In this document: positions 13,380 to 37,258 of the stretch, piece after piece
Numbering within the stretch: position 1 is the first letter of the stretch
Layout: the number at the start of each line of letters is the position of its first letter
IMG/VR virus record: IMGVR_UViG_3300043450_000132
Location: 1-38,086 of that record
DNA: 38,086 nucleotides
Reading direction: 5' to 3' (one strand)
Source: a virus
Notes under the pieces: model-generated
What the model was told of the DNA's origin: nothing
Database searches by the model: none
What the model saw: the letters and a program-made list of their open reading frames with translations, nothing else
Program-made: the position numbers and the translations under genes

Positions 13380-13687
13380 CCCCGAAGGAAGAAATGGACG
13401 CGCTGGCGGAGACGCTGCTGAAGCCCACGACGCGCAGCGAAATCCTGGAGGAGGCGAGCCGCCTGATCCACGGCGAGCGCGCGAAGGCCTACGGGCCGCC
13501 GGAGGTCAACCACCTCCGCATCGCGAGGGGCTGGGCGATCATCCTCGGCACCGAAGTCAGGCCTGATCAGGTGGCCCTCTGCATGGCGTGGCTGAAGATT
13601 GCGCGCCTGTGTGAGGGGCCGCACCGTGACAGCTACGTGGACGGTGCGGCCTATTTGGCGCTGGCAGGCGAGCTGGCGCTGGACTAG
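13376..13687 (+). CDS. DUF6378-like protein, possible nucleotide metabolism
   Basis: A 103-residue helical protein. The pattern EILEEASRLIHGERAKAYG, then IARGWAIILG, VALCMAWLKIARL and DSYVDGAAYLALAGEL matches the phage DUF6378 family as I remember it. The family resembles all-alpha NTP pyrophosphatases (MazG-like), with acidic residues along helices. Paired with the HD hydrolase, a nucleotide-pool role is likely. The last 4 bases overlap the convergent cI gene. Confidence 0.75.
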   Translation: MTPKEEMDALAETLLKPTTRSEILEEASRLIHGERAKAYGPPEVNHLRIARGWAIILGTEVRPDQVALCMAWLKIARLCEGPHRDSYVDGAAYLALAGELALD

Positions 13688-14250
13688 AGCCGCTTGCCCG
13701 CCCAGACGACGCGCCCAGCGACCTTGATGTCGCTGGGGGCGACATCGCCGAGCGGCGCGTAGAGCGCATTGTCGTTCGTGATCGTGAGCTTCTTGCGGAT
13801 CGGGTTGAACGACACGCGCTTCACCATCGTGTGGCCTGCGGCCTCGATCGCGTAGACGCCATCCTGCGTGACCTTCGCCACCGTCTTGTCGATCAGGACG
13901 ATGTCGCCCCGCGCAAGCGTCGGCAGCATAGCGTCATCCTCCACTTCGATCGCCTGAAGCGTTGAGGGCTTGCCTATCTTGTCCACCTGATCCCCATCGA
14001 AGGCCATGCGCTTCTTGCCGCCCAGAAAGGGAAGCACTACCACAGGCTGCTCGATGATTTGGCCATCGCCAATCAAGTCTGCGACGCGGCAATTCAACGC
14101 GCCCGCGATCTCCTCGAGCAGAGGCATGTTTACGCGCCCCGGCTCCTTCTCATACCTACCCACTGATACCCCCGTCGTACCTATTAACTTGGCAAGGTCA
14201 GATTGCGACATCCCTCGCGCCTCGCGCAACTCGCGTATTCTTAATTTCAT
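13684..14250 (-). CDS. CI-type phage repressor with inactive S24 domain
   Basis: A 188-residue repressor. Residues 1-60 form an XRE helix-turn-helix (SQSDLAKLIGTTGVSVGRYE). Residues about 95-188 form a LexA/CI S24-type dimerisation domain. The catalytic serine motif reads EDDAMLPTL, so Ser is replaced by Ala107, while the Lys144 of MVKRV remains. Self-cleavage, the usual RecA-triggered induction step, should not occur. Related proteins with DAM in place of DSM exist in other phages, some controlled by antirepressors. The gene overlaps integrase (ATGA) and is convergent with the replication operon. It probably binds the ACCGNNNCGGT sites. Confidence 0.85.
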   Translation of the reverse strand: MKLRIRELREARGMSQSDLAKLIGTTGVSVGRYEKEPGRVNMPLLEEIAGALNCRVADLIGDGQIIEQPVVVLPFLGGKKRMAFDGDQVDKIGKPSTLQAIEVEDDAMLPTLARGDIVLIDKTVAKVTQDGVYAIEAAGHTMVKRVSFNPIRKKLTITNDNALYAPLGDVAPSDIKVAGRVVWAGKRL

Positions 14251-15092
14251 GCAAGGTGCCCCCGCACTTCATCCATCCTCGCCAGAACATCCTCTGGCCG
14301 TAGATTTACGTACCGCTGAAGCATCCTCCAGTCCGCGTGGCCGCTGACCACCCGGAGCATGGCGGGCGTCCAGCCAGCCGCCGCGAGACGAGATAAGCAC
14401 TCATGGCGCAGGTCGTGCCAGTGAAAATCCTGTAGGGAGGGCATGACGCTGGCGGCGCGGTCACGGGTGCGGTGCCAGCTCAGGCGGTGGGCGTTGGCCG
14501 TCATGTCGAGCAGCGAGCCCACGCCAGCGTGCGGCCTGAGCGCCTCAACGGCGGGGATGGACAGCGGCACCAGCCTGCCCTTGTTCGTCTTGGTCACCTC
14601 CTTGGGCAGCCGGATCGTGCGGGCCGAGAGGTCGATCCACTCGCGCCGGATCGCGCACATCTCATTGCGCCTGACGCCCGTCTCGACGGCCACCACCATC
14701 GAGAGGCGCATGCGCTCGCTGGCCTCGCCCCACAGCGCCTGCCACTCGCCGGGCAGCAGCCTGCGCTCGCGCCCGCTGTCGATCGTCGGCATGGCGATGC
14801 GACTGAAGGTCTGCTTGTGGTCGGGGATGTCGAGGCCCCACTCCTGGCGCGCCGTGCGGATGATCGCCTTGAGGCAATTCAGCTCGTGCGTGATGGATTG
14901 GGGCGAGAGGTGCGCGCGGGTCCGCATGAAGTCCCGCAGATGCTCCGGCTGGAGCTTTCCGATGCGGATGTGGCCGAGGTGCTGGGCCACGGTGCGGGCG
15001 CGGTAGCCCGTCTGGTGGGGGCGTGGAAAGGCCGCCGCGTAGCGGTCGGCCAATTCACGTATTGTCGGGGAAAACAACTTAAGGCTGATCAT
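14247..15092 (-). CDS. int: Tyrosine-recombinase integrase
   Basis: A 281-residue site-specific recombinase. The catalytic set is visible: Arg141 (ETGVRRNEM), a Lys near 168-171, His226 and Arg229 (HWHDLRH), His252 (SGHADW) and nucleophile Tyr261 (RYVN). An N-terminal SAM-like core-binding domain (about 10-90) precedes it; the arm-binding domain seems reduced. The ATG at 15092 has GGAG seven bases upstream. attP lies 66 bp upstream. The stop overlaps cI, so integrase and repressor come from one mRNA. Confidence 0.9.
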   Translation of the reverse strand: MISLKLFSPTIRELADRYAAAFPRPHQTGYRARTVAQHLGHIRIGKLQPEHLRDFMRTRAHLSPQSITHELNCLKAIIRTARQEWGLDIPDHKQTFSRIAMPTIDSGRERRLLPGEWQALWGEASERMRLSMVVAVETGVRRNEMCAIRREWIDLSARTIRLPKEVTKTNKGRLVPLSIPAVEALRPHAGVGSLLDMTANAHRLSWHRTRDRAASVMPSLQDFHWHDLRHECLSRLAAAGWTPAMLRVVSGHADWRMLQRYVNLRPEDVLARMDEVRGHLA

Positions 15093-18695: not shown

Positions 18696-19322
18696 TTACC
18701 GCCCGGCCATCATCATGAAGGGCAGCGTCAGGTAGTCGAACAGGCCCGGCGTCCTGGTCGCCGTGCTCGTGCTCTGCCCCATGTTTGCCGCGCCCACAGC
18801 CGCCATCGGGAGCTGGATCGAGCGCTCAGGCGCGCCCGTGAAGCCCGCGAACTGGCCCTTGGCCGCGTCGATCAGCGCCTGCTGGATCGCCTGCTGCATC
18901 TGGCCCTGCTGCATCTGCTGCTGGTTCAGTTGCTGGCCGAAGCCGAAGCCCTGCTGCGCGAGGTTCGACATCATCTGCTGCTGCTGCTGGGCTGCGCCCA
19001 GAGCCGTGTTGAAGCCCTGCATGTTCAGGTTGGCCGACGTGTCGGCGAGCTGCTTCGTGAAGCCCGCGTTCGTCTGCGCCTCGGCCACGCCGTGGCGCGA
19101 TCCGCCGAAGGCGCGAGCTGCCTGAGCCTGAGCCCCGAGCTGGCCCATTGCTTGCCGCTGCGCGATGCCGAGGTCGGCCATCACGTTGTTCGTCACGTTC
19201 TGCGTGAACGGGTTCATGAACTGGCCGATGTTCGGGCCCTGCAGGGCGGTGCCGTAGGCACCTGCCGCCTGCTGCATTACGTTCGGCTGCTGCACGTTCT
19301 GGGGGTTTGCTCCGCCTGACAT
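18696..19322 (-). CDS. Gln-rich internal virion/ejection protein
   Basis: A 208-residue protein very rich in Gln, Ala, Met and Gly. It includes NPFTQNVTNNVMADLGIAQ and a run of Gln/Met repeats (about 112-145), followed by a Gly/Ala hydrophobic C-terminus. This composition resembles small internal virion proteins of podoviruses. It starts one base before the stop of the next gene upstream. The C-terminal LFDYLTLPFMMMAGR could enter a membrane. Confidence 0.6.
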   Translation of the reverse strand: MSGGANPQNVQQPNVMQQAAGAYGTALQGPNIGQFMNPFTQNVTNNVMADLGIAQRQAMGQLGAQAQAARAFGGSRHGVAEAQTNAGFTKQLADTSANLNMQGFNTALGAAQQQQQMMSNLAQQGFGFGQQLNQQQMQQGQMQQAIQQALIDAAKGQFAGFTGAPERSIQLPMAAVGAANMGQSTSTATRTPGLFDYLTLPFMMMAGR

Positions 19323-19323
19323 C

Positions 19324-20031
19324 TTACTTTCCTCCGCCCATGCCTGAAGAACGACTGGTCGGCGGGGCTGTCTTGACGCCGAGAGAGTTCAGCATTCCCG
19401 AAATCGGCCCGCCGACAAACGTGCTGCCGCTCGTGCCAGGGCCACCGCCATCAATCCTGTCGCGGAAGTTCGTGAAGGGCGATGCGTTCATCGACTGCGA
19501 GATGTAGTCCCCGCCGCCGCCCAAGATGGCTCCGAGGTTCATGCCGCGCCCGAAGGGGCCGCCCCGCGACCCGCGCGAGGGCTGCACCGCGCCCGCAGGG
19601 CTGTCGCTGAAGCCGCCTGCGCCGCCGCCGAAGGGCGATCCCGGCTCTGCGCCAGTCACTGGATCGATGAAGGGCGCGTTCAGCGCCGCGAACTGCCCAG
19701 GCCGCTGCGCTGCCAGTGCATCGATCGACTGCTGGAACATCGGCGCGGAGCTGTAGCCCTGCACGCCGCCCGCGAAGGTCTGCGGCGCAGGCATGCCCGC
19801 CATCGCGTCCGTCGGAGCGGCCATGCCGAAGGCCGAGGCTGCGTCGTTCGTGTTCTGGAAGGCCGCCTGCTGCATGGGCGTGAAGCCCGCCACGTCTGGC
19901 CCGAAGTAGGGAGTGTAGCCGACCTGCGCGAGCTTGTCGGCGCGCGCCATGTTCTGCCGTGCGCCACCTTCCAGCCACGCAGGAATTTTCACCTGCTGCG
20001 TCTGCTTGCCGCCCTTGCCTCCGCCGCTCAT
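19324..20031 (-). CDS. Gly-rich virion protein with GGPxSGxLNxLGV motif
   Basis: A 235-residue, Gly/Pro/Ala-rich low-complexity protein. A longer frame runs to 20151, but the ATG at 20031 overlaps the upstream stop (ATGA). The N-terminus (KIPAWLEGGARQNMARADKLAQVGYTPYFGPDVAGFTPMQQAA) is typical of podovirus internal proteins. Near the C-terminus residues 205-219 carry a motif shared with the 232-residue protein at 35078-35776. Probable ejection or head-tail interface component. Confidence 0.6.
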   Translation of the reverse strand: MSGGGKGGKQTQQVKIPAWLEGGARQNMARADKLAQVGYTPYFGPDVAGFTPMQQAAFQNTNDAASAFGMAAPTDAMAGMPAPQTFAGGVQGYSSAPMFQQSIDALAAQRPGQFAALNAPFIDPVTGAEPGSPFGGGAGGFSDSPAGAVQPSRGSRGGPFGRGMNLGAILGGGGDYISQSMNASPFTNFRDRIDGGGPGTSGSTFVGGPISGMLNSLGVKTAPPTSRSSGMGGGK

Positions 20032-20399
20032 GCCGCGAACTCCTTTTCCAGCACCGTCATCACGGGCCTGTATCCGTACTTGCCGAGGACACGCGCCCAG
20101 CCGTGTCGCCCCGCGATTGTCATGCTTGTGCAGCCCTGCCCCTTGCTCCACTCGACGGCGCTGTCGATCATGTCGATGATCTGATCCATCTCGCCGCCCG
20201 CGAGAAACACGTGCAGGACGCTCTTCCTAGGGTATAGCACGATTTCAGTGACCGCGCACCCGCGCGCGGCAGGCCAGAGCTGCATCCGGCCCTCGACGAT
20301 GCCCTGCACCACGTCCTCGAAGGCGTGCGTGCCGCCGCTGTACTCGAGGGCATCCTCGATCCACGGGCGGCACCGCAGAAGCTCCGCAGCGCCGTTCAT
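20028..20399 (-). CDS. GNAT-fold internal virion protein, T7 gp13-like
   Basis: A 123-residue protein with the end of a GNAT fold: beta strands around EIVLYPRKSVLHVFLAGG and a helix with DSAVEWSKGQGCTSMTIAGRHGWARVLGKYGYRPV. T7 gp13 and its relatives share this fold and position before ejection proteins, and are thought to serve virion assembly, not acetylation. The acetyl-CoA loop is weak here. It overlaps neighbours on both sides. Confidence 0.65.
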   Translation of the reverse strand: MNGAAELLRCRPWIEDALEYSGGTHAFEDVVQGIVEGRMQLWPAARGCAVTEIVLYPRKSVLHVFLAGGEMDQIIDMIDSAVEWSKGQGCTSMTIAGRHGWARVLGKYGYRPVMTVLEKEFAA

Positions 20400-28821: not shown

Positions 28822-29060
28822 TGCGGTGCCACCTTGCTTTGACGCCTGTCGAAGACGGCCTCGTCGTCCGAGAACGATTGGAGGCGAGCTTCCAGCGCGT
28901 CGAGCGCCCACACCATGTGGCGCGCTTCAATGAGGACTTCATCGGGCGCGCGGCCCGTGAAGATGGCGATCTGATCCGCGCGCAGGCCGTCGATGGCCTC
29001 CCGCAGAACGAGATCGCCGAGAAGGGCCCGCGCGCGGGATGCCTTCTGCTTGATGTCCAT
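28818..29060 (-). CDS. Hypothetical small protein between portal and scaffold
   Basis: An 80-residue helical protein, typical of the small gene that sits between portal and scaffold in podoviruses. It opens with a Lys/Arg-rich helix (KQKASRARALLGDLVLREAIDGLRADQIAIF) and ends in a flexible tail. It overlaps both neighbours. Function unknown. Confidence 0.65.
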   Translation of the reverse strand: MDIKQKASRARALLGDLVLREAIDGLRADQIAIFTGRAPDEVLIEARHMVWALDALEARLQSFSDDEAVFDRRQSKVAPQ

Positions 29061-31162
29061 CAGATCACCCCACCGTTACCCGCAGGCGCACCGCCAGGGC
29101 CACGCATCGCGGCCTGCTCGGCCTTGATCTGGGCCGTCTGAACGGCGACGCCGCTCCTGGCCTCGATCTCCGCCGCGCGCAGGTACAAGTCCTGCGCCAT
29201 GCGGTCGCGCTCGCGGTCGTCGGCCATCTGGGCCTTCATGGCTTCGATCTGGTTCTTCTGCATGTCGGCCTGCACGCGGGCGCTGACCTTCATCTGCTCG
29301 GCTTGGAGGAACGCCGCCGACTGCGGGTCTTGCTGCGGCTGCTGCTGCGCGGCGGCCTGTGCCGCCTGGCCCATGAGCTGCTGCTCGATCTGCATGCTCA
29401 TCGGGCGGTAATAGCGATCGGCGTTGCGGACGCCAGCGGCGAACAGGATATCAGCCAGCGTGTTGCGGATCTCCGTCAGGCCGACGAGCGGGTTCTGCGG
29501 GCCGTAGGCCTGCATGATGCCCATCTGGGTCTGCAACGTGGCGGCCAGCGCCATCTGCTTCTCTTCCTCGCGGCCAGTGCCCAGGCCGACGTTGATCGTC
29601 ACGTCCATGTCAGCGTTCCAGACACGCGGGTCCATCGGCACGAAAGACGTGTTGAGGCGCATCATTTCGGGGCCGCGTGCGTGCTTGATCCAGAGGTGCA
29701 GCATGATCTTGTAGAGGCGGCGCAGGCCGCCTTCGGCCAGGTTGCGCGCCATCGTCTCGACCTGAGCGGCGGCGGCGGAGATAGTGGCGGTGACGGCAGC
29801 CTTGGTCGTCGATTGGAGGGCATCGGGATCAAGGCCTTGAGAAGCGCGCGTCACCCCCGTCTTCTGTTCGACGAGGTCGTCAATGTATTGCAGGGCGGGC
29901 AGCGTCTGCCCGGCCACGAAAGGCACCGAAAGCTCGCGGACGGCGTCGATCTGGCGCATCCGCACCACGCCGCCGATCTCATTGTTGAGCAGGTCGGACA
30001 TGTTCACCATGCCCTCAACGGCCCCCGTGCGGGGACTGTTGGTCATGGCCACGTTGTCCAGGATGCCGCGCAGCACAGCCGTGCCTGCGTCCTGCTCGTT
30101 CTTGATCAGGTCGTAGATCGATCGACCGAAGAAGGCGTGCGGCTCAGGGTCGATCTCGAAGACGGCGAAAGGGCTCTCATCGGCAGGCTCGAAGTCCAGC
30201 AGCTTGTAGCCCGTGCCGCCGAGCAGGAAGCGATGCAGGACGGGGACGCCCGTGCCATCGACATCCACCCGCATGTAGGCCTCAGTCAGCGTGACCTTCC
30301 GCATGGCCGGATCGCTCGCACTCTCGTCGTCCATGTAGTCTGCGGTGTACTTCCGGCGCGCGTCGCGCTCCTCGTCCGACAGGTCGTCGCCGCCATCGTC
30401 GAAGGATCCGAGATCGACCACGTCGTCGAAGGCGAAGCCCATCTCCACGAGATCACCGACGCGCATCTCAGTGCGCTGGCCGTGGATGTAGGCTGTCTCC
30501 GCGTCGCGGGCGCGGCTGTCCACGAAGAACTCTTCCGGCGGCACCGAGGCGACGCACATCTTGCCGCGCGTCTCCGTGCGGCTGATCTTCAGGTCATGCG
30601 TGGACATGGACATGGCCATGCCCATCGGATCCATCTGCTCGACCACGTTCGCCGTGTGCTCCAGCACCTCGACGCCCGGCTCGTTCAGGACGAGCATCAG
30701 CTCGTCGTCGGAGAGGTCGGTGAAGGTGAAGACCTCGGCCTTCGACTGATCCTCCCACCACACCTTCAGGATGCCTGTCTTCTTGCGAAGCGCGTCATCG
30801 AAGGCGTCGTTCAGGAGGCGGAAGCCGTTCGACTGCTCGAGCTTCTTCTGGATGCCGATCGTGGCCTGCTCCGCGCTTGCCACGTCTTCGGGGCCGACGG
30901 GCACGAACTCGGCGGGCTTCTCGTGCGACAGGAAGATCCGCATCAGGCTCGGCTTGACCTGCCGGATGGTGTCGCGCACCTTCGTGGCGACCACCTTCGA
31001 TCGGCCTTCCTCGACCCCGATGTCCACTTCGCCATCGAAGTACTGCTGCGCCTTCACGCGCTCAGGCGCGATCTCGCTCTCGATGAAATCGACAGCGTCC
31101 TGCACCGCTCCGGCCACCAGGGCCTCTAGCTCGTCTCGGGTCTTCGGCTTCAGTTGAGCCAC
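29060..31162 (-). CDS. Portal protein (P22/SU10-like)
   Basis: A 700-residue portal. The N-terminal half has the wing and stem features of P22-type portals (VKPSLMRIFLS, FDDALRKKTGILKVWWEDQ, ASVPPEEFFVDSRARDAETAYIHGQRTEM). The central part (YDLIKNEQDAGTAVLRGILDNVAMTNSPR) and a Gln-rich helical barrel near the C-terminus (MQIEQQLMGQAAQAAAQQQPQQ) also fit. Translation starts at GTG 31162; the GAGGG site six bases upstream is in a 6-bp hairpin. It is the first gene after a 72-base gap carrying an operator-like site. Confidence 0.85.
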   Translation of the reverse strand: MAQLKPKTRDELEALVAGAVQDAVDFIESEIAPERVKAQQYFDGEVDIGVEEGRSKVVATKVRDTIRQVKPSLMRIFLSHEKPAEFVPVGPEDVASAEQATIGIQKKLEQSNGFRLLNDAFDDALRKKTGILKVWWEDQSKAEVFTFTDLSDDELMLVLNEPGVEVLEHTANVVEQMDPMGMAMSMSTHDLKISRTETRGKMCVASVPPEEFFVDSRARDAETAYIHGQRTEMRVGDLVEMGFAFDDVVDLGSFDDGGDDLSDEERDARRKYTADYMDDESASDPAMRKVTLTEAYMRVDVDGTGVPVLHRFLLGGTGYKLLDFEPADESPFAVFEIDPEPHAFFGRSIYDLIKNEQDAGTAVLRGILDNVAMTNSPRTGAVEGMVNMSDLLNNEIGGVVRMRQIDAVRELSVPFVAGQTLPALQYIDDLVEQKTGVTRASQGLDPDALQSTTKAAVTATISAAAAQVETMARNLAEGGLRRLYKIMLHLWIKHARGPEMMRLNTSFVPMDPRVWNADMDVTINVGLGTGREEEKQMALAATLQTQMGIMQAYGPQNPLVGLTEIRNTLADILFAAGVRNADRYYRPMSMQIEQQLMGQAAQAAAQQQPQQDPQSAAFLQAEQMKVSARVQADMQKNQIEAMKAQMADDRERDRMAQDLYLRAAEIEARSGVAVQTAQIKAEQAAMRGPGGAPAGNGGVI

Positions 31163-31525: not shown

Positions 31526-31963
31526 TCAGTCCTTCTTGCTGTGCCACGAGGGCACGTTGAAGCCAGGGCAAGCCTTCTGGGCCCACTGATTGTGACCGCT
31601 CACCGCGAGCTTGCCGTACTTGCGTTGCAGGTCCGCGATGACGGCGCGAAGCGCCCGATCCTGCGACGCGGTGAAGTTTTCCTCGAAGGTGTCGGTCGCC
31701 GCCGATCCGAAGCCGCCGACCAGGCACACGCCGACGGTGCCCGTGTTGCGGCCCTGCGTGTGCGCGCCGACCCGCTCCAGGGGGCGGCCAGCGGTCACGG
31801 TGCCATCGCGGTCGATCACGTAGTGGTATCCGATGTCGGACCAGCCGTTGTCGCGCATGTGCCAGAGCTTGATCTCGCGCACCTTCGCCGACGCCGTCTT
31901 GCCGTCCATCCAGTTCGGCCTCGTCGCCGAGCAGTGGACGATGACCTCCTTGATGGGCCTCAT
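31526..31963 (-). CDS. N-acetylmuramoyl-L-alanine amidase endolysin (T7 lysozyme-like)
   Basis: A 145-residue Amidase_2 enzyme that cleaves the bond between MurNAc and L-alanine in peptidoglycan. Zinc ligands are His10 (VHCSAT), His124 (SGHNQW) and Cys132 (KACPGF); Tyr46 (IGYHYV) and Lys130 match the catalytic Tyr and Lys of T7 lysozyme. The size equals T7 lysozyme and there is no signal peptide, so release needs the holin. A longer frame to 32221 is rejected because ATG 31963 overlaps the upstream stop. T7 lysozyme also inhibits T7 RNA polymerase; no such polymerase is here. Confidence 0.9.
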   Translation of the reverse strand: MRPIKEVIVHCSATRPNWMDGKTASAKVREIKLWHMRDNGWSDIGYHYVIDRDGTVTAGRPLERVGAHTQGRNTGTVGVCLVGGFGSAATDTFEENFTASQDRALRAVIADLQRKYGKLAVSGHNQWAQKACPGFNVPSWHSKKD

Positions 31964-32346
31964 GCGAGCAGCTCCCTTATCGAGGCCTCCATGCGTTCGC
32001 GCGTGAACAGTTCGGGCCTGACGCGGCGGCGCATGTCCTCGGGGCGGAAGAATAGCACAATCTCCAGTTGCAGCGCCACTAGGGCGTAGATGTCGGTGTT
32101 GGGGCCGATGGAGCGGAAGCAGAAGCCGTAGGTTTGCAGCTTGTCCTTGCCGTAGGCCGTAGGCTCTGTTGCCGACTTGACCTGGACCGTGAGCATCCGC
32201 CCGCTGGGCGTCCTGACCCACAGGTCGTGCTCCTCTCGATCCACATGCGCCACCTGCACGCCGTGGCGCTCGAGCTGGTACATCGTCAGCAGCTCACCGA
32301 CCAAACCCGTGTCACGGGTGGCGCTTCTGCGGTCTACCGCATGCAG
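31960..32346 (-). CDS. PD-(D/E)XK-like nuclease, possible CTG start or frameshift
   Basis: A 114-128-residue protein. TGLVGELLTMYQLERHGVQVAHV, then HDLWV and LTVQVKSA give the Glu...Asp...Gln-x-Lys order of small PD-(D/E)XK nucleases. The only near-standard start in frame is TTG 32304, which lacks a Shine-Dalgarno and drops the usual TG before VGEL. A CTG at 32346 has GAGG seven bases upstream and restores 14 residues. The ATG overlapping the previous stop runs out after five codons in another frame. So either a non-AUG start or a frameshift is present. Confidence 0.6.
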   Translation of the reverse strand: MHAVDRRSATRDTGLVGELLTMYQLERHGVQVAHVDREEHDLWVRTPSGRMLTVQVKSATEPTAYGKDKLQTYGFCFRSIGPNTDIYALVALQLEIVLFFRPEDMRRRVRPELFTRERMEASIRELLA

Positions 32347-32347
32347 G

Positions 32348-32575
32348 TCATTTCCTCAGGGCGGCCTCGATGCTGTCGAGCTTGGCGAAGATCGCGTCGA
32401 TGGTGCGCCGCATCTCCTTGAACTCGCGGTCGTGCGCCTCCTTGGATGCCTCGATCTGGGCCTGCATCACGGCGATCAGCGTGGCGTGCGACTGCTGCTT
32501 GGTGTGCAGCAGCCAAACGAACGCGCCGACGGGCAGAACCACGTACTTCAGCGCCATGTCGATCCACGTGTCCAT
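32348..32575 (-). CDS. Single-span membrane protein with coiled coil (spanin-like?)
   Basis: A 75-residue protein. A short N-terminal helix and one hydrophobic span (about 8-24: ALKYVVLPVGAFVWLLH) are followed by a charged coiled coil of about 45 residues. This is the shape of an i-spanin or of DUF2730/T7 18.5-like proteins. No lipoprotein partner (o-spanin) is seen. It sits at the head of the lysis cassette. The start is ATG 32575, with a TGATG junction; TTG 32578 is less likely. Confidence 0.6.
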   Translation of the reverse strand: MDTWIDMALKYVVLPVGAFVWLLHTKQQSHATLIAVMQAQIEASKEAHDREFKEMRRTIDAIFAKLDSIEAALRK

Positions 32576-33690
32576 CAATACTGCTCCTGCTCGGGACGCA
32601 GGCCAAGGAGGCCGAAGAGGGGGGCGCTGCCCGCAAGGGCGGCGCTCAAATTTTCAGACCGCGCCCGGCGCGGGTCGAAGGCAGCGAAGCGCGAGCGCAG
32701 CACCGCGTCGGAAGCACCGCCGCGATCCGTCAGCATGATGTTGCTGACGCTGCCGGGGTCTTCGACATCGTTGATGTAGGGCAGGCTGGTGAAGCCCTCA
32801 TCGGCCAGGCGGCGGCGCATCATGGGCGGAACGTCGCGGCGATCGATGCCATGCTCGTCGGCCATTGCCGAGATGAACATCTCGAGGTCAAGCTCGGTCC
32901 AGGGCTTCCCCGTTGACGGATTATTGAACGGGCGCGACAGATCTGCCTTCAGTGGGATCGTGAAGCCTGTCGGCTCCTCCCACCCCATAAAGCGGTCCTC
33001 GGCTGCGCGCTGCGTGCCAACGTGCGGGCCGAGCCTGCTGGTCGAGCCCGTCGATTTATCCAGGTCAAAGGCGGTGAAGTCTTCGGGGGAACGCGACCAG
33101 TGGTACACGTCCGACCAGCCATCGCCGAAGTCAGCCGCACGGCCCGGCATCGTCAGCGCACCGCCGTCGCCGACAGCGAAGTCCACGATGCTGCGTTTCA
33201 CGGCGGGGCCGGAGGTCGCCACGAATTGCGCGGCATCGCTCAGGAGGCCGTCAGCGGCCCGCGCAGCGCCCTTGGCCGCAGGGCCGAGGCCCAGCAGCGA
33301 CGGGATCACCATCGCGCCCGTCAGGGCCGCCTCCGCAGCCGCTGTGCCGTAGTTTCCGGCGCGGGTCTGATCGGCGACGCTCTGCCCCATCAGGCGGATG
33401 TCCTCGATGCCCTGCGGCACGCCCGCGACGGGCGTGAACGACAGCGCGGTCAGGTACTCCGGCGTGCCGCGCACAAGGCCTGCGTCCATCGCCTTGTCGG
33501 CCAGATACGCGGTGACGCGGTTCTCGCTGCTCAGCGCCTCGGCCATCGACAGCAGCTCGTCCAGATCGAAGCGCGACTGGCGGTCCCAATATGCGCGACC
33601 TTGCGCGTCCGTCTTCATGACGGGCAGTGTGTCAATTGCCGCGCGCAGGATGCGCGGATCGTCCAGGAGGGCGAGATACCTCTCGTCCAT
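32575..33690 (-). CDS. ADP-ribosyltransferase-like late protein
   Basis: A 371-residue protein. Residues about 192-340 follow the pattern of phage ART-like domains found in polyvalent and MuF-type proteins: VYHWSRSPEDFTAFD (195-209), IPLKADLSRPF, then FTSLPYINDVEDPGS, and a closing LRSRFAAFDP (331-340). The N-terminal 110 residues are helical; residues 115-150 hold a Gly/Ala hydrophobic stretch. The C-terminus ends in a Gly-rich hydrophobic segment before PEQEQ. It is probably packaged or late-expressed and acts on host proteins after ejection. The catalytic Glu is not certain. Confidence 0.6.
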   Translation of the reverse strand: MDERYLALLDDPRILRAAIDTLPVMKTDAQGRAYWDRQSRFDLDELLSMAEALSSENRVTAYLADKAMDAGLVRGTPEYLTALSFTPVAGVPQGIEDIRLMGQSVADQTRAGNYGTAAAEAALTGAMVIPSLLGLGPAAKGAARAADGLLSDAAQFVATSGPAVKRSIVDFAVGDGGALTMPGRAADFGDGWSDVYHWSRSPEDFTAFDLDKSTGSTSRLGPHVGTQRAAEDRFMGWEEPTGFTIPLKADLSRPFNNPSTGKPWTELDLEMFISAMADEHGIDRRDVPPMMRRRLADEGFTSLPYINDVEDPGSVSNIMLTDRGGASDAVLRSRFAAFDPRRARSENLSAALAGSAPLFGLLGLRPEQEQY

Positions 33691-35078
33691 CAGCGGGCCT
33701 CAAGGCTCTTCAGGTACTGGATCATCTCGTCTTCGGGCGACATGGTCGCCGCCTGCGCTTGATCGGGCTGCATGGACAGGAGGCCGCCGCCAAGGCCTGC
33801 GCCCGTCACTGCCAGCGGAGAGCGGCCCTGCGCGAAGTCCATGAACTGCGAGCGACGATCTGTGATGCGCTGCCCTGCCCGCTTGTCAATGGTGCGACGC
33901 ATCAGCTCCATGAAGGTGCCTTGGCTCTCATCGGCGAGGCCCGTCAGGTCGCCCGCGCCCATCCAGAGGTTTGCTTGGAACTGGGCGGGCGTCATCTCGT
34001 AGCGCGCAGCCAAGCGCTGCGCCATCTCTTCCAGCGCCGCGTACTCGTTGTCGTTGGGCACATCAAGCCACGCCTGCGGGACATCACGGAACAGCGCGGT
34101 GTCTTGGATCACGCCATCCTGCGCCGCCTTGTACAGGTTCACCTCAGTCACGAGCTGGCCCGTCCCCGTCTTGCGGGTCTTGATGTACGGCTCGATCACA
34201 TCGCCGTATGCGGCGCGGAGCTTTTCGAGGTTTGCGCCGGAGAGCTGCGCCTGCTGCGTCAGGAAGTCGGTGCCGCCGTCAGACATCGCCAAGAGGCGCA
34301 TGAAGTGCTTGTCGGCAGCAATGTTCTGCTCAGAGCCAAGCAGGTCGTTGCGGAAGCCCTTCACCTTCGGGTTGGCCTTGAGCCACGCACTCAGCTCGCC
34401 CTTCGTCAGCCCAGCGGGCGGCGTTTCGGACCAGTTGCCGTCCATGATGTTGAGCACGTTCTTGGCGTGGTTGCCCTGCATCACGTGGCCGTAGTTGTAG
34501 TCGTCGGGCATGTTCGGAACGGAAACGCCAAGCTCCCGCGCTGCCGCTCCCGGCGTGATGCCGCCCTGGGATACTCGCTCAGCCACCGCGCGCCGCATCT
34601 CCGGCGGCAGGGTGTAGTAGAAGCTCGCATTGCGGAGGTTGGAGGGCACATCAGAGCCCGTCGAAGTCGCGCCGACCATGTTGACGTAGTCGCGCCACAT
34701 TGCGTCGCCGCGAGCCTCGTCACCATTGGCGGCGGCGATCATCCAGTCGCGCAGCTCTTCCGAATTGTACCAGTCCGACCCGCTCAGGGTCTTGCCCTTC
34801 TCGATGTAGCTGTCGAAGACGCTCTGGATCGGCGCGTTCGGGTCATCCGCCGCCGCGATCAGACGCGACATGCGGTCGGTGTTCACCTTCGGTGTATAGC
34901 GTGGGTATTCGGTCGTGCGGTTGGGAGCTGCGCCACGGTATTCAGGCCGCGATCCGGCGGGCAGGTCGATGGTGTCCATCGCGGGGCCGCCGTTGTTGCC
35001 CATGATCCGCCGCAGAATGTCTTCCGCCACATCGACGCCGAGCTTGACGCCGCCCTTGATCATCTCGCCCTTGCCCAT
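33690..35078 (-). CDS. Large unknown virion-associated/polyvalent-like protein
   Basis: A 462-residue protein without an assigned fold. The segment NHAKNVLNIMDGNW, then VKGFRNDLLGSEQNIAADKHFMRLLAM resembles a helical domain repeated in phage polyvalent proteins (K-x-F-x-N-x-L-x-G ... D-x-H-x-x-R). The C-terminus has a Gly-rich hydrophobic stretch (AVTGAGLGGGLLSM) followed by PDQAQAATM, parallel to the end of the ART-like neighbour. Both probably travel in the virion or are made late. It starts at a TAATG junction. Confidence 0.55.
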   Translation of the reverse strand: MGKGEMIKGGVKLGVDVAEDILRRIMGNNGGPAMDTIDLPAGSRPEYRGAAPNRTTEYPRYTPKVNTDRMSRLIAAADDPNAPIQSVFDSYIEKGKTLSGSDWYNSEELRDWMIAAANGDEARGDAMWRDYVNMVGATSTGSDVPSNLRNASFYYTLPPEMRRAVAERVSQGGITPGAAARELGVSVPNMPDDYNYGHVMQGNHAKNVLNIMDGNWSETPPAGLTKGELSAWLKANPKVKGFRNDLLGSEQNIAADKHFMRLLAMSDGGTDFLTQQAQLSGANLEKLRAAYGDVIEPYIKTRKTGTGQLVTEVNLYKAAQDGVIQDTALFRDVPQAWLDVPNDNEYAALEEMAQRLAARYEMTPAQFQANLWMGAGDLTGLADESQGTFMELMRRTIDKRAGQRITDRRSQFMDFAQGRSPLAVTGAGLGGGLLSMQPDQAQAATMSPEDEMIQYLKSLEAR

Positions 35079-35776
35079 TAGCGTCTTCCATATCCAGAGG
35101 TGGTGGGGTAGCCCGTTGAGTAGGTCAGGGGCGCGATGGTCGCGGGAGCCCCAAGCACTGGCGGGGTCGTCATCGCAAACGGGGGCGGCGGGGATGAAGT
35201 GAAGCCGCTGCGGTCAAACCACAACGCCGCCTCCATGTCGCGGGCAAGGCGCTGCCTCTCCATCAGCTCCTGCATCGTCGGCATGCGCGGCGGCTGCATG
35301 ATGCGAGGGCCGACAGGCGCGCCGCGCTGAATGGCGGCCAGGATGTCGTCAGTGGTCAGATTGCCGATCATCGGCGACGCGCTGACCTGGCCCGGTGCGG
35401 GCGGCTGGGGAGCCATCGCGGGTGCCGTCGTAAGGTCCGTGGGGCGAGGCATAGGCCGCGCGTCGCTCATGCGATCGCGGTAGCCCATCGGGCGCACGCC
35501 CAGCTCATTCAGGAGGCCGGAGAACGGGCCGCCCTCAAAGCGCTGGCCGGAGCGGCCCGCGCCGCCACCGTCGAACATGTCGAGCAGGCCCGTGTAGCCG
35601 AAGATGCCGCCGCCAGGTGCGCGCGGGGCGGCAGGGCCGCCAGGCGAGCCGGATCTGCTGGGGCCGAGGGACGGCGTCACGCCGCGAAGGTGTGACGGGA
35701 TCGGGGTGCCGTCGCGGGCATTCGCCGCCCGCGCATATCCAGCCGCCGCCGCCCGGTTTCGCTCTTTCATGGACAT
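35078..35776 (-). CDS. Pro/Gly-rich protein with GGPxSGxLNxLGV motif
   Basis: A 232-residue low-complexity protein rich in Pro, Gly, Ala and Met, with no enzyme motif. Residues 80-94 share 11 of 15 positions with residues 205-219 of the virion protein at 19324-20031. The motif is preceded in both by Gly-rich linkers. It is the first gene after terL, with AGGA seven bases before ATG 35776. Likely a flexible virion component or docking partner. Confidence 0.6.
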   Translation of the reverse strand: MSMKERNRAAAAGYARAANARDGTPIPSHLRGVTPSLGPSRSGSPGGPAAPRAPGGGIFGYTGLLDMFDGGGAGRSGQRFEGGPFSGLLNELGVRPMGYRDRMSDARPMPRPTDLTTAPAMAPQPPAPGQVSASPMIGNLTTDDILAAIQRGAPVGPRIMQPPRMPTMQELMERQRLARDMEAALWFDRSGFTSSPPPPFAMTTPPVLGAPATIAPLTYSTGYPTTSGYGRR

Positions 35777-35842: not shown

Positions 35843-37258
35843 TCAGGCGACGCCCTTCAGGCCGCGCCGCAGGGGCTTGTTCCACGAGCCGCTGGCCGAG
35901 ACGCCGTAGATGGCCGTGGCGGCGTCAGCCGCCATCGTCAGGCACACCGCGTCAGCCAAGTCAGGCGACCGAAGCCCGCGCCGCCGCATGTCGTCCTTGC
36001 TCTCGACCTGCAACTTGCCGGAGGAGGAGAACTTGAAGCGCGGGCCAGCCAGTTCAGCCATCAGGTCTTCATCGCGGGGCAGCTTGCAGCCGCGCTGCTC
36101 CAGCCACGCCTTCGTGGCAAACCACAGCTCCGCGCGCAGGTTCTGGTACGTGCCCTTCATGCTCGGGCTCTCGGACACGTTCACACCCCGCGCGGGGAGC
36201 TTCAGCTCCCGCAGTCGGTCCACGACGCCGGAGCCGAGGCCGATGCTGTCCACCAGGATCTCGACGGGCCGCAGGTGCTGCGGCTGCGCCTGGTACTCGG
36301 CCACGACCGCGCCCGTGAGTTGCATGAGATCCAGGCCCGCCCACCGCTTGATCTCAGTGATCACCTGGCCGCGCCGCTTGGCGAGTGCCGATCGGTCGGT
36401 GCCGAAGCGCGCCACGTCCAAGGCCCAGATCGCCGGAGCGCGCTCATCCTCCGCCAGGTCGCGCGCCATCGACGCCTCGATCAGGTGCATGGGGATCACG
36501 GTGTCGTCATCCGAGAGCGGGAACTCGCCGAGGACGCGGACGCGGTAGGCGTTGCTGTCCTCGCCGTAGCGCTGCCTCATCTCGTCAACGTACGCTGCAC
36601 TGACGCGCGGACTGTCCACGCAGCTCACGCGCCGCGTCCACCACTGGCCCTTGAGGCGGTTGTGCGTGTCGAAGAAGAAGCCGCTGGATCGCGTCGGGTT
36701 GCCGAGCAGGATGGTGCAGGCCTCCTCGCCCGACATCGAGCCTGCCGCCGCCTCGAAGACGGCCTCCGGCACGCCCGACGCCTCGTCCGCGATCAGCAGC
36801 ACGTTGTCGGCGTGGATACCTTGCAGGGCTTCGGGGCTCTCCGCGCGGCTGGTCCTCGCGGAGATGAAGCCCGTCTCCGGGGCCGCCGCGATCTCGACGC
36901 GGTCGCTCTTCACGTTCAGGAGCTGCTGCACCTGCACGGGCAGGACGTTGACCCAGCGCTTGATCTCCGCGAAGAGCGCGTCGAAGAGCTGCGCCGATGT
37001 CGGGGCCGTGATAACGATCTTCACAGGGTAGCGCGTGAGCAGATACCAGATGCACAGGATCGCCACCGTGGTGGACTTGCCGACGCCGTGGCCGGAGCGC
37101 ACGGAGATGCGCCGCTCGCCAGCGGCGACGGCCATCATCAGATCGGCCTGCCACGGGTCAGGCTCCACTGCCAGCACCTCCCGCGCGAACAGCACGGGGT
37201 TGTCGCGGTAGCGCTTCAGCCACTGGATGAAGGCGTTCTGCTCGGCTTGGCTTGTCAC
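35843..37258 (-). CDS. terL: Terminase large subunit
   Basis: A 471-residue DNA-packaging motor. The ATPase domain has Walker A SGHGVGKST (55-63, Lys61) and Walker B VLLIADEAS (153-161, Asp158/Glu159), with TAPT and GNPTRSSG coupling motifs. The RNase H-like nuclease domain has Asp281 (ALDVARFGTD), Asp337 (ILVDSIG) and a final Asp near 433-436 (PDLADA). GTG 37258 overlaps the upstream stop (GTGA). It cuts and pumps genome concatemers into proheads through the portal. Close to the family's usual length. Confidence 0.93.
   Translation of the reverse strand: MTSQAEQNAFIQWLKRYRDNPVLFAREVLAVEPDPWQADLMMAVAAGERRISVRSGHGVGKSTTVAILCIWYLLTRYPVKIVITAPTSAQLFDALFAEIKRWVNVLPVQVQQLLNVKSDRVEIAAAPETGFISARTSRAESPEALQGIHADNVLLIADEASGVPEAVFEAAAGSMSGEEACTILLGNPTRSSGFFFDTHNRLKGQWWTRRVSCVDSPRVSAAYVDEMRQRYGEDSNAYRVRVLGEFPLSDDDTVIPMHLIEASMARDLAEDERAPAIWALDVARFGTDRSALAKRRGQVITEIKRWAGLDLMQLTGAVVAEYQAQPQHLRPVEILVDSIGLGSGVVDRLRELKLPARGVNVSESPSMKGTYQNLRAELWFATKAWLEQRGCKLPRDEDLMAELAGPRFKFSSSGKLQVESKDDMRRRGLRSPDLADAVCLTMAADAATAIYGVSASGSWNKPLRRGLKGVA

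Follow-up and report, generated by a model that had tools for sequence, protein, structure and literature searches.

A phage protein encoded among head and packaging genes carries a divergent ART-PolyVal-like domain and may be a virion-associated effector

We describe a 371-aa protein of a virus (IMG/VR record IMGVR_UViG_3300043450_000132), the C-terminal domain of which represents a divergent family related to the phage ADP-ribosyltransferase (ART) domain ART-PolyVal. Using computational analysis, we found that this domain is homologous to ART-PolyVal and has a corresponding predicted fold, that the location of its gene in the head module is conserved, and that its pocket-like residues are invariant. 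With a probability of about 0.6, the protein is a virion-associated effector with a C-terminal divergent ART fold of the phage ART-PolyVal type, which would be packaged, ejected and ADP-ribosylate a host macromolecule. The window is the whole stretch of DNA that was analysed (38,086 nucleotides, positions 1 to 38,086 of the record). The positions of the main features are given in Table 1.

The gene and its place among the head genes

The preliminary description placed an ART-like late effector at 32575-33690 without naming a strand. It turned out that an ORF with exactly these ends lies on the minus strand. The GC content at its codon positions 1, 2 and 3 (0.68, 0.52 and 0.83) is that of a real gene in a virus record with 66% GC, and the conservation of its C-terminal domain in viral contigs speaks against a chance ORF; the plus-strand ORFs across the same positions are unsupported shadow frames. 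The start codon of the gene overlaps the stop codon of the 462-aa gene lying upstream (TGATGG), and the small gene that follows has its ATG overlapping the TGA of the ART-like gene. Thus, with TGATG-type stop/start junctions at both ends, the three genes look translationally coupled. The 462-aa protein has a Gly-rich hydrophobic C-terminus and is a possible partner of the ART-like protein or a second virion protein.

Table 1. Positions in the window of the ART-like gene, its domain and conserved residues, and selected neighbours
Feature	Position	Strand	Remarks
Terminase large subunit	35843..37258	-	PHROG 2, E 7.7e-49
462-aa ORF	33690..35078	-	Directly upstream, same operon; weak DUF7178 match
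ART-like gene	32575..33690	-	371-aa ORF, ATG start; helical N-terminal half and C-terminal ART-like domain
N-terminal residues 1-185	33136..33690	-	Helical, low-confidence; Ala/Gly-rich hydrophobic stretch at residues 117-139
ART-PolyVal-like domain	32626..33135	-	Residues ~186-355; family alignments, AlphaFold2 model, Foldseek to ART-PolyVal-like viral proteins
H197	33100..33102	-	Motif 1, strand 1; present in 55/55 members covering the position
H223	33022..33024	-	Motif 2 (G-x-H-V-G-T), strand 2; invariant 57/57
E310	32761..32763	-	In N-x-V-E; invariant 57/57; putative catalytic acid
S316	32743..32745	-	Start of strand 5, invariant; near the Glu/Asp site of other ARTs, to which it may be equivalent
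RSRFAAFDP tail	32671..32697	-	Also follows Pfam-matched ART-PolyVal domains (L010, L011, phage ctTUS972)
Small protein	32348..32578	-	Directly downstream; one hydrophobic stretch and predicted helical tail; start overlaps ART-like stop codon
SU10-type portal protein	29060..31162	-	PF23899, E 1.4e-186

On the minus strand, the genes of the small and large terminase subunits and two unknown genes precede the ART-like gene. It is followed by the genes of the small hydrophobic-stretch protein, a short REase-like ORF, an amidase endolysin, a small TM protein, the SU10-type portal, the scaffold, the major head protein and virion structural proteins. A DNA-ejection-protein-like gene is found at 18696-19322. 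Among the proteins scanned, including a subset of the small ORFs, neither a neighbouring antitoxin nor an ADP-ribose hydrolase was seen. A 114-aa ORF between the head and lysis genes (31960-32304) weakly resembles REases (pPIWI_RE_REase, DUF4365) and phrog_5018. Two Pro/Gly-rich proteins encoded 15 kb apart (35078-35776 and 19324-20151) both contain GGP[FI]SG[LM]LN.LGV.

Portal and terminase families differ among the phages of the relatives, so the head-module position is shared across lineages. The gene lies directly before the portal gene in L001, L081 and L083-L086, between TerL and portal in L010, after TerL in L011-L014 and L025, and upstream of portal in L029, L039, L042 and L048. In distant members the order is TerL-ART-portal (L061), TerL-portal-ART-capsid (L071) or TerL-portal-ART-scaffold (L055), and in the virus Rctr197k a family member is part of a 2183-aa protein encoded straight after the terminase. 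The late-operon placement given in the preliminary description agrees with this terminase-ART-portal-scaffold-capsid order in the window and in relatives. Encoding among head and packaging genes, as in phage polyvalent and virion effectors, is thus found here as well.

According to published surveys, polyvalent-protein ARTs are encoded near virion genes, their active site is His/Tyr/Asp, and packaging and injection of the T4 Alt kind are likely for them (PMC5512222, PMC9503650). The SU10 head releases five types of ejection protein (PMC9509320), and the phage of the window has the portal type of SU10. By analogy, the most likely course is that the ART-like protein is packaged and, once ejected, modifies a host macromolecule. 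It would be made together with the head proteins, would probably enter the head, perhaps by means of the helical N-terminal half, and would be ejected with the DNA; ADP-ribose from NAD+ would then be transferred to the host macromolecule early in infection. An ejection with DNA of the T4 Alt kind that modifies host proteins, as first suggested for this gene, is plausible from the context and from the published work on polyvalent proteins (PMC5512222, PMC9503650).

It is also conceivable that the protein is an active enzyme that remains unpackaged inside the producing cell and acts there late in infection or in lysogeny, for example in counter-defence. The genome has an integrase next to a CI/LexA-like repressor with S24 peptidase (13684-15092), which indicates a temperate phage, and the gene is close to that of the amidase endolysin. 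Moreover, a phage ART that acts against CRISPR inside the cell is described (PMC12421852), and AcrIF11 shows that an ART can serve in counter-defence. However, several relatives have the gene immediately next to that of the portal, with the scaffold and capsid genes after it, and we consider a purely intracellular role distinctly unlikely.

Relationship to ART-PolyVal and other ARTs

Scans of the 371-aa protein with the Pfam, PHROG and NCBIfam models gave no direct match. PF18760, the Pfam model of ART-PolyVal (curated cut-off 31.2 bits), left the window protein unmatched and matched 3 of 62 family members, with a best E of 0.027. Sequence search of the PDB yielded nothing for the protein and two insignificant matches with the family profile. 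No match to the window protein was obtained by tblastn in isolate phages even at E 10; a relative used as the query gave weak matches only, of which Rctr197k was confirmed as real by the family profile. No relative was found in plasmids, nor in GTDB genomes by pattern scans, which reach only patterned candidates. So far, nearly all members of the C-terminal domain family come from uncultured phages. In viral contigs, the domain has relatives at 33-58% identity. At least 110 stretches of these contigs encode a relative, and 80 of the stretches were retained. For the N-terminal half, conservation was not detectable in these relatives, and the search gave no convincing relatives. The window protein has one recognisable domain, and some relatives of 800-2183 aa contain a second ART, a DUF6884 or a GNAT domain. 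L006:616-3072 joins a family member to a DUF6884 domain (E 1.6e-9), which is a polyvalent-style architecture.

The family domain and ART-PolyVal occur in the same polypeptides. In L073:5251-7137, a Pfam ART-PolyVal domain (E 1.5e-19) comes after the family domain. The closest relatives of the window gene (L010:2167-3951 and L011:5521-7245, 56-57% identity) contain the family domain and a second copy, the ART-PolyVal matches of which (E 3.7e-5 and 2.1e-6, respectively) are below the curated cut-off. Both copies in both proteins end in a related A.FDP tail, and the second copy of L011 finds the divergent L048 branch of the family (E 5.8e-6). This tandem ART-like pair, present in the closest relatives, is absent from the window gene. 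The family profile and an ART-PolyVal profile are co-linear over 163 columns (P 2.6e-5) with a probability of 74.8%, whereas the best of 40 shuffled-column controls reached 1.6%. Without the bridge copies of L010 and L011, the similarity to Pfam-type ART-PolyVal shrinks to motifs 1-2 (P 0.0013) and is still above all shuffles.

The low-confidence N-terminal half blurred the fold search with the full-length model, and therefore the C-terminal domain was folded alone. The AlphaFold2 model of the domain had a pLDDT of 88.6 and a pTM of 0.86. In the viral structure library, Foldseek matched it to ART-PolyVal-like proteins at probability 1.00 with E down to 1.6e-5. There were 19 matches with E < 0.001, several of them named ART-PolyVal-like; a virion RNA polymerase and a MuF fusion protein scored slightly lower. 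Fold matches in the PDB were mainly to ARTs, with PARP catalytic domains as the largest group and NatT in addition; they were weak and not significant (E ~0.8 or worse, TM at most 0.40), so that the PDB comparison alone is insufficient for assigning the protein to ARTs. The PDB sequence search gave no match to PARPs or NatT. The ART fold was recognised by comparing the predicted domain model with viral ART-PolyVal-like models.

The preliminary description had made its ART-like call dependent on a predicted fold related to ART. The structure was predicted and compared and did not refute this call, which the tandem fusions, the profile comparison and the fold comparison with phage ART-PolyVal proteins support. 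The motifs cited there also lie in the C-terminal half, namely VYHWSRSPEDF at residues 195-205, ADLSRPF at ~249-255 and LRSRFAAFDP at 331-340.

The domain resembles ART-PolyVal in fold, in the YH of motif 1, in G-x-[HY] of motif 2, in the GY..I strand and in the RSRFA.FDP tail, as well as in its fusions and head-gene context. It differs in that the Pfam model does not recognise the stand-alone window protein, the motif-2 Tyr is His, and the invariant acid, part of N-x-V-E, precedes an invariant Ser. The RSRFAAFDP tail and ART-PolyVal copies are also present in protein UOF78806.1 of Caudoviricetes sp. ctTUS972 (MW202573.1; L108:4564-6603), which differs from the window protein by its classical ART-PolyVal sequence (E 1.2e-17 over two stretches) and multi-domain organisation. 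Its gene sits in a head-tail/DNA-injection module, surrounded by genes for tail adaptor, stabilization and DNA injection, and its annotation as a 'DNA repair protein' is likely wrong.

T4 Alt (Alt/VIP2 family) is similar in its proposed role only, as a head-packaged ART that acts on the host immediately after injection. It belongs to the R-S-E clade and has another active-site signature and no sequence kinship with the window protein, in which strands 1 and 2 both carry His. The window protein is thus not an Alt-family enzyme. This is in line with the earlier view that the sequence is unrelated to T4 Alt: the closest group is H-Y-[EDQ]/ART-PolyVal, whose signature is altered here to an H-H-E-like one. 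We conclude that the family represents a novel form of phage ART-PolyVal, neither a relative of Alt nor strictly a member of PF18760, and that its assignment to ARTs is well supported.

Invariant residues and the putative active site

In 57 aligned domains, 11 columns are strictly invariant (G221, H223, V224, G225, R233, E266, Y305, N307, E310, S316 and I318). The strand-1 His expected of the ART-PolyVal/H-Y-[EDQ] clade is present as H197 in every member covering the position. The classical clade has Tyr at the strand-2 motif-2 position (PMC5512222); in the family this position is His in all members. The strand-5 acid seems to be replaced by Ser316, at which the strand starts, and Glu310 is located six residues upstream, in the preceding loop. 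In the Rctr197k member, N-x-V-E and D-S-W-I are both present. Catalysis may depend on E310 instead, or it may be changed or absent. The putative catalytic residues are H197, H223 and E310.

The absence of the classical strand-2 Tyr and the apparent absence of the strand-5 acid count against the putative activity and leave it in doubt. It is possible that an ART fold with lost or changed catalysis has NAD+, ADP-ribose or a partner protein as its ligand and serves as a structural or regulatory component of the head or of ejection; the consistent tie of the gene to the portal and head module would fit such a role. However, H197, H223, N307 and E310 are invariant, although the mean column identity in the family is 30%, which suggests a working pocket. 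The classical H-Y pattern in the partner copy of some relatives is neutral in this respect. We regard such loss or change of catalysis as unlikely.

His in strands 1 and 2 and the lack of an acid at the apparent strand-5 position would also suit an ART of the H-H-h (KptA/Tpt1-like) clade with RNA or small molecules as substrates. Such an identity is highly improbable, since PF01885 was unmatched, the tandem fusions are with ART-PolyVal, and the 50 PDB fold matches listed included no KptA/Tpt1 structure, the ARTs there being mostly PARPs. On the PF01885 and fold results, the KptA/H-H-h identity was set aside. Returning to a packaged ART, we tentatively suggest, as a rather doubtful extension, that the family forms a lineage of its own among ARTs packaged in the head and has a rebuilt His-His-Glu active site, in which the acid has moved upstream of strand 5.

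To our knowledge, the injection of phage ARTs with the genome has been proposed as a first-line strategy against the host, and few of these proteins beyond T4 Alt have been tested. Phage ARTs are already known; judging by the alignments, what is new here is the strand-2 His in all members and the apparent strand-5 Ser together with the invariant Glu located six positions before it. The family is widespread in uncultured phages and is missed by Pfam, PHROG and NCBIfam searches; a model built from the family alignment (A5) would let annotators find its members. The invariant residues make the catalytic question directly testable. If the active site is indeed rebuilt, the chemistry or the acceptor would differ from those of known phage ARTs.
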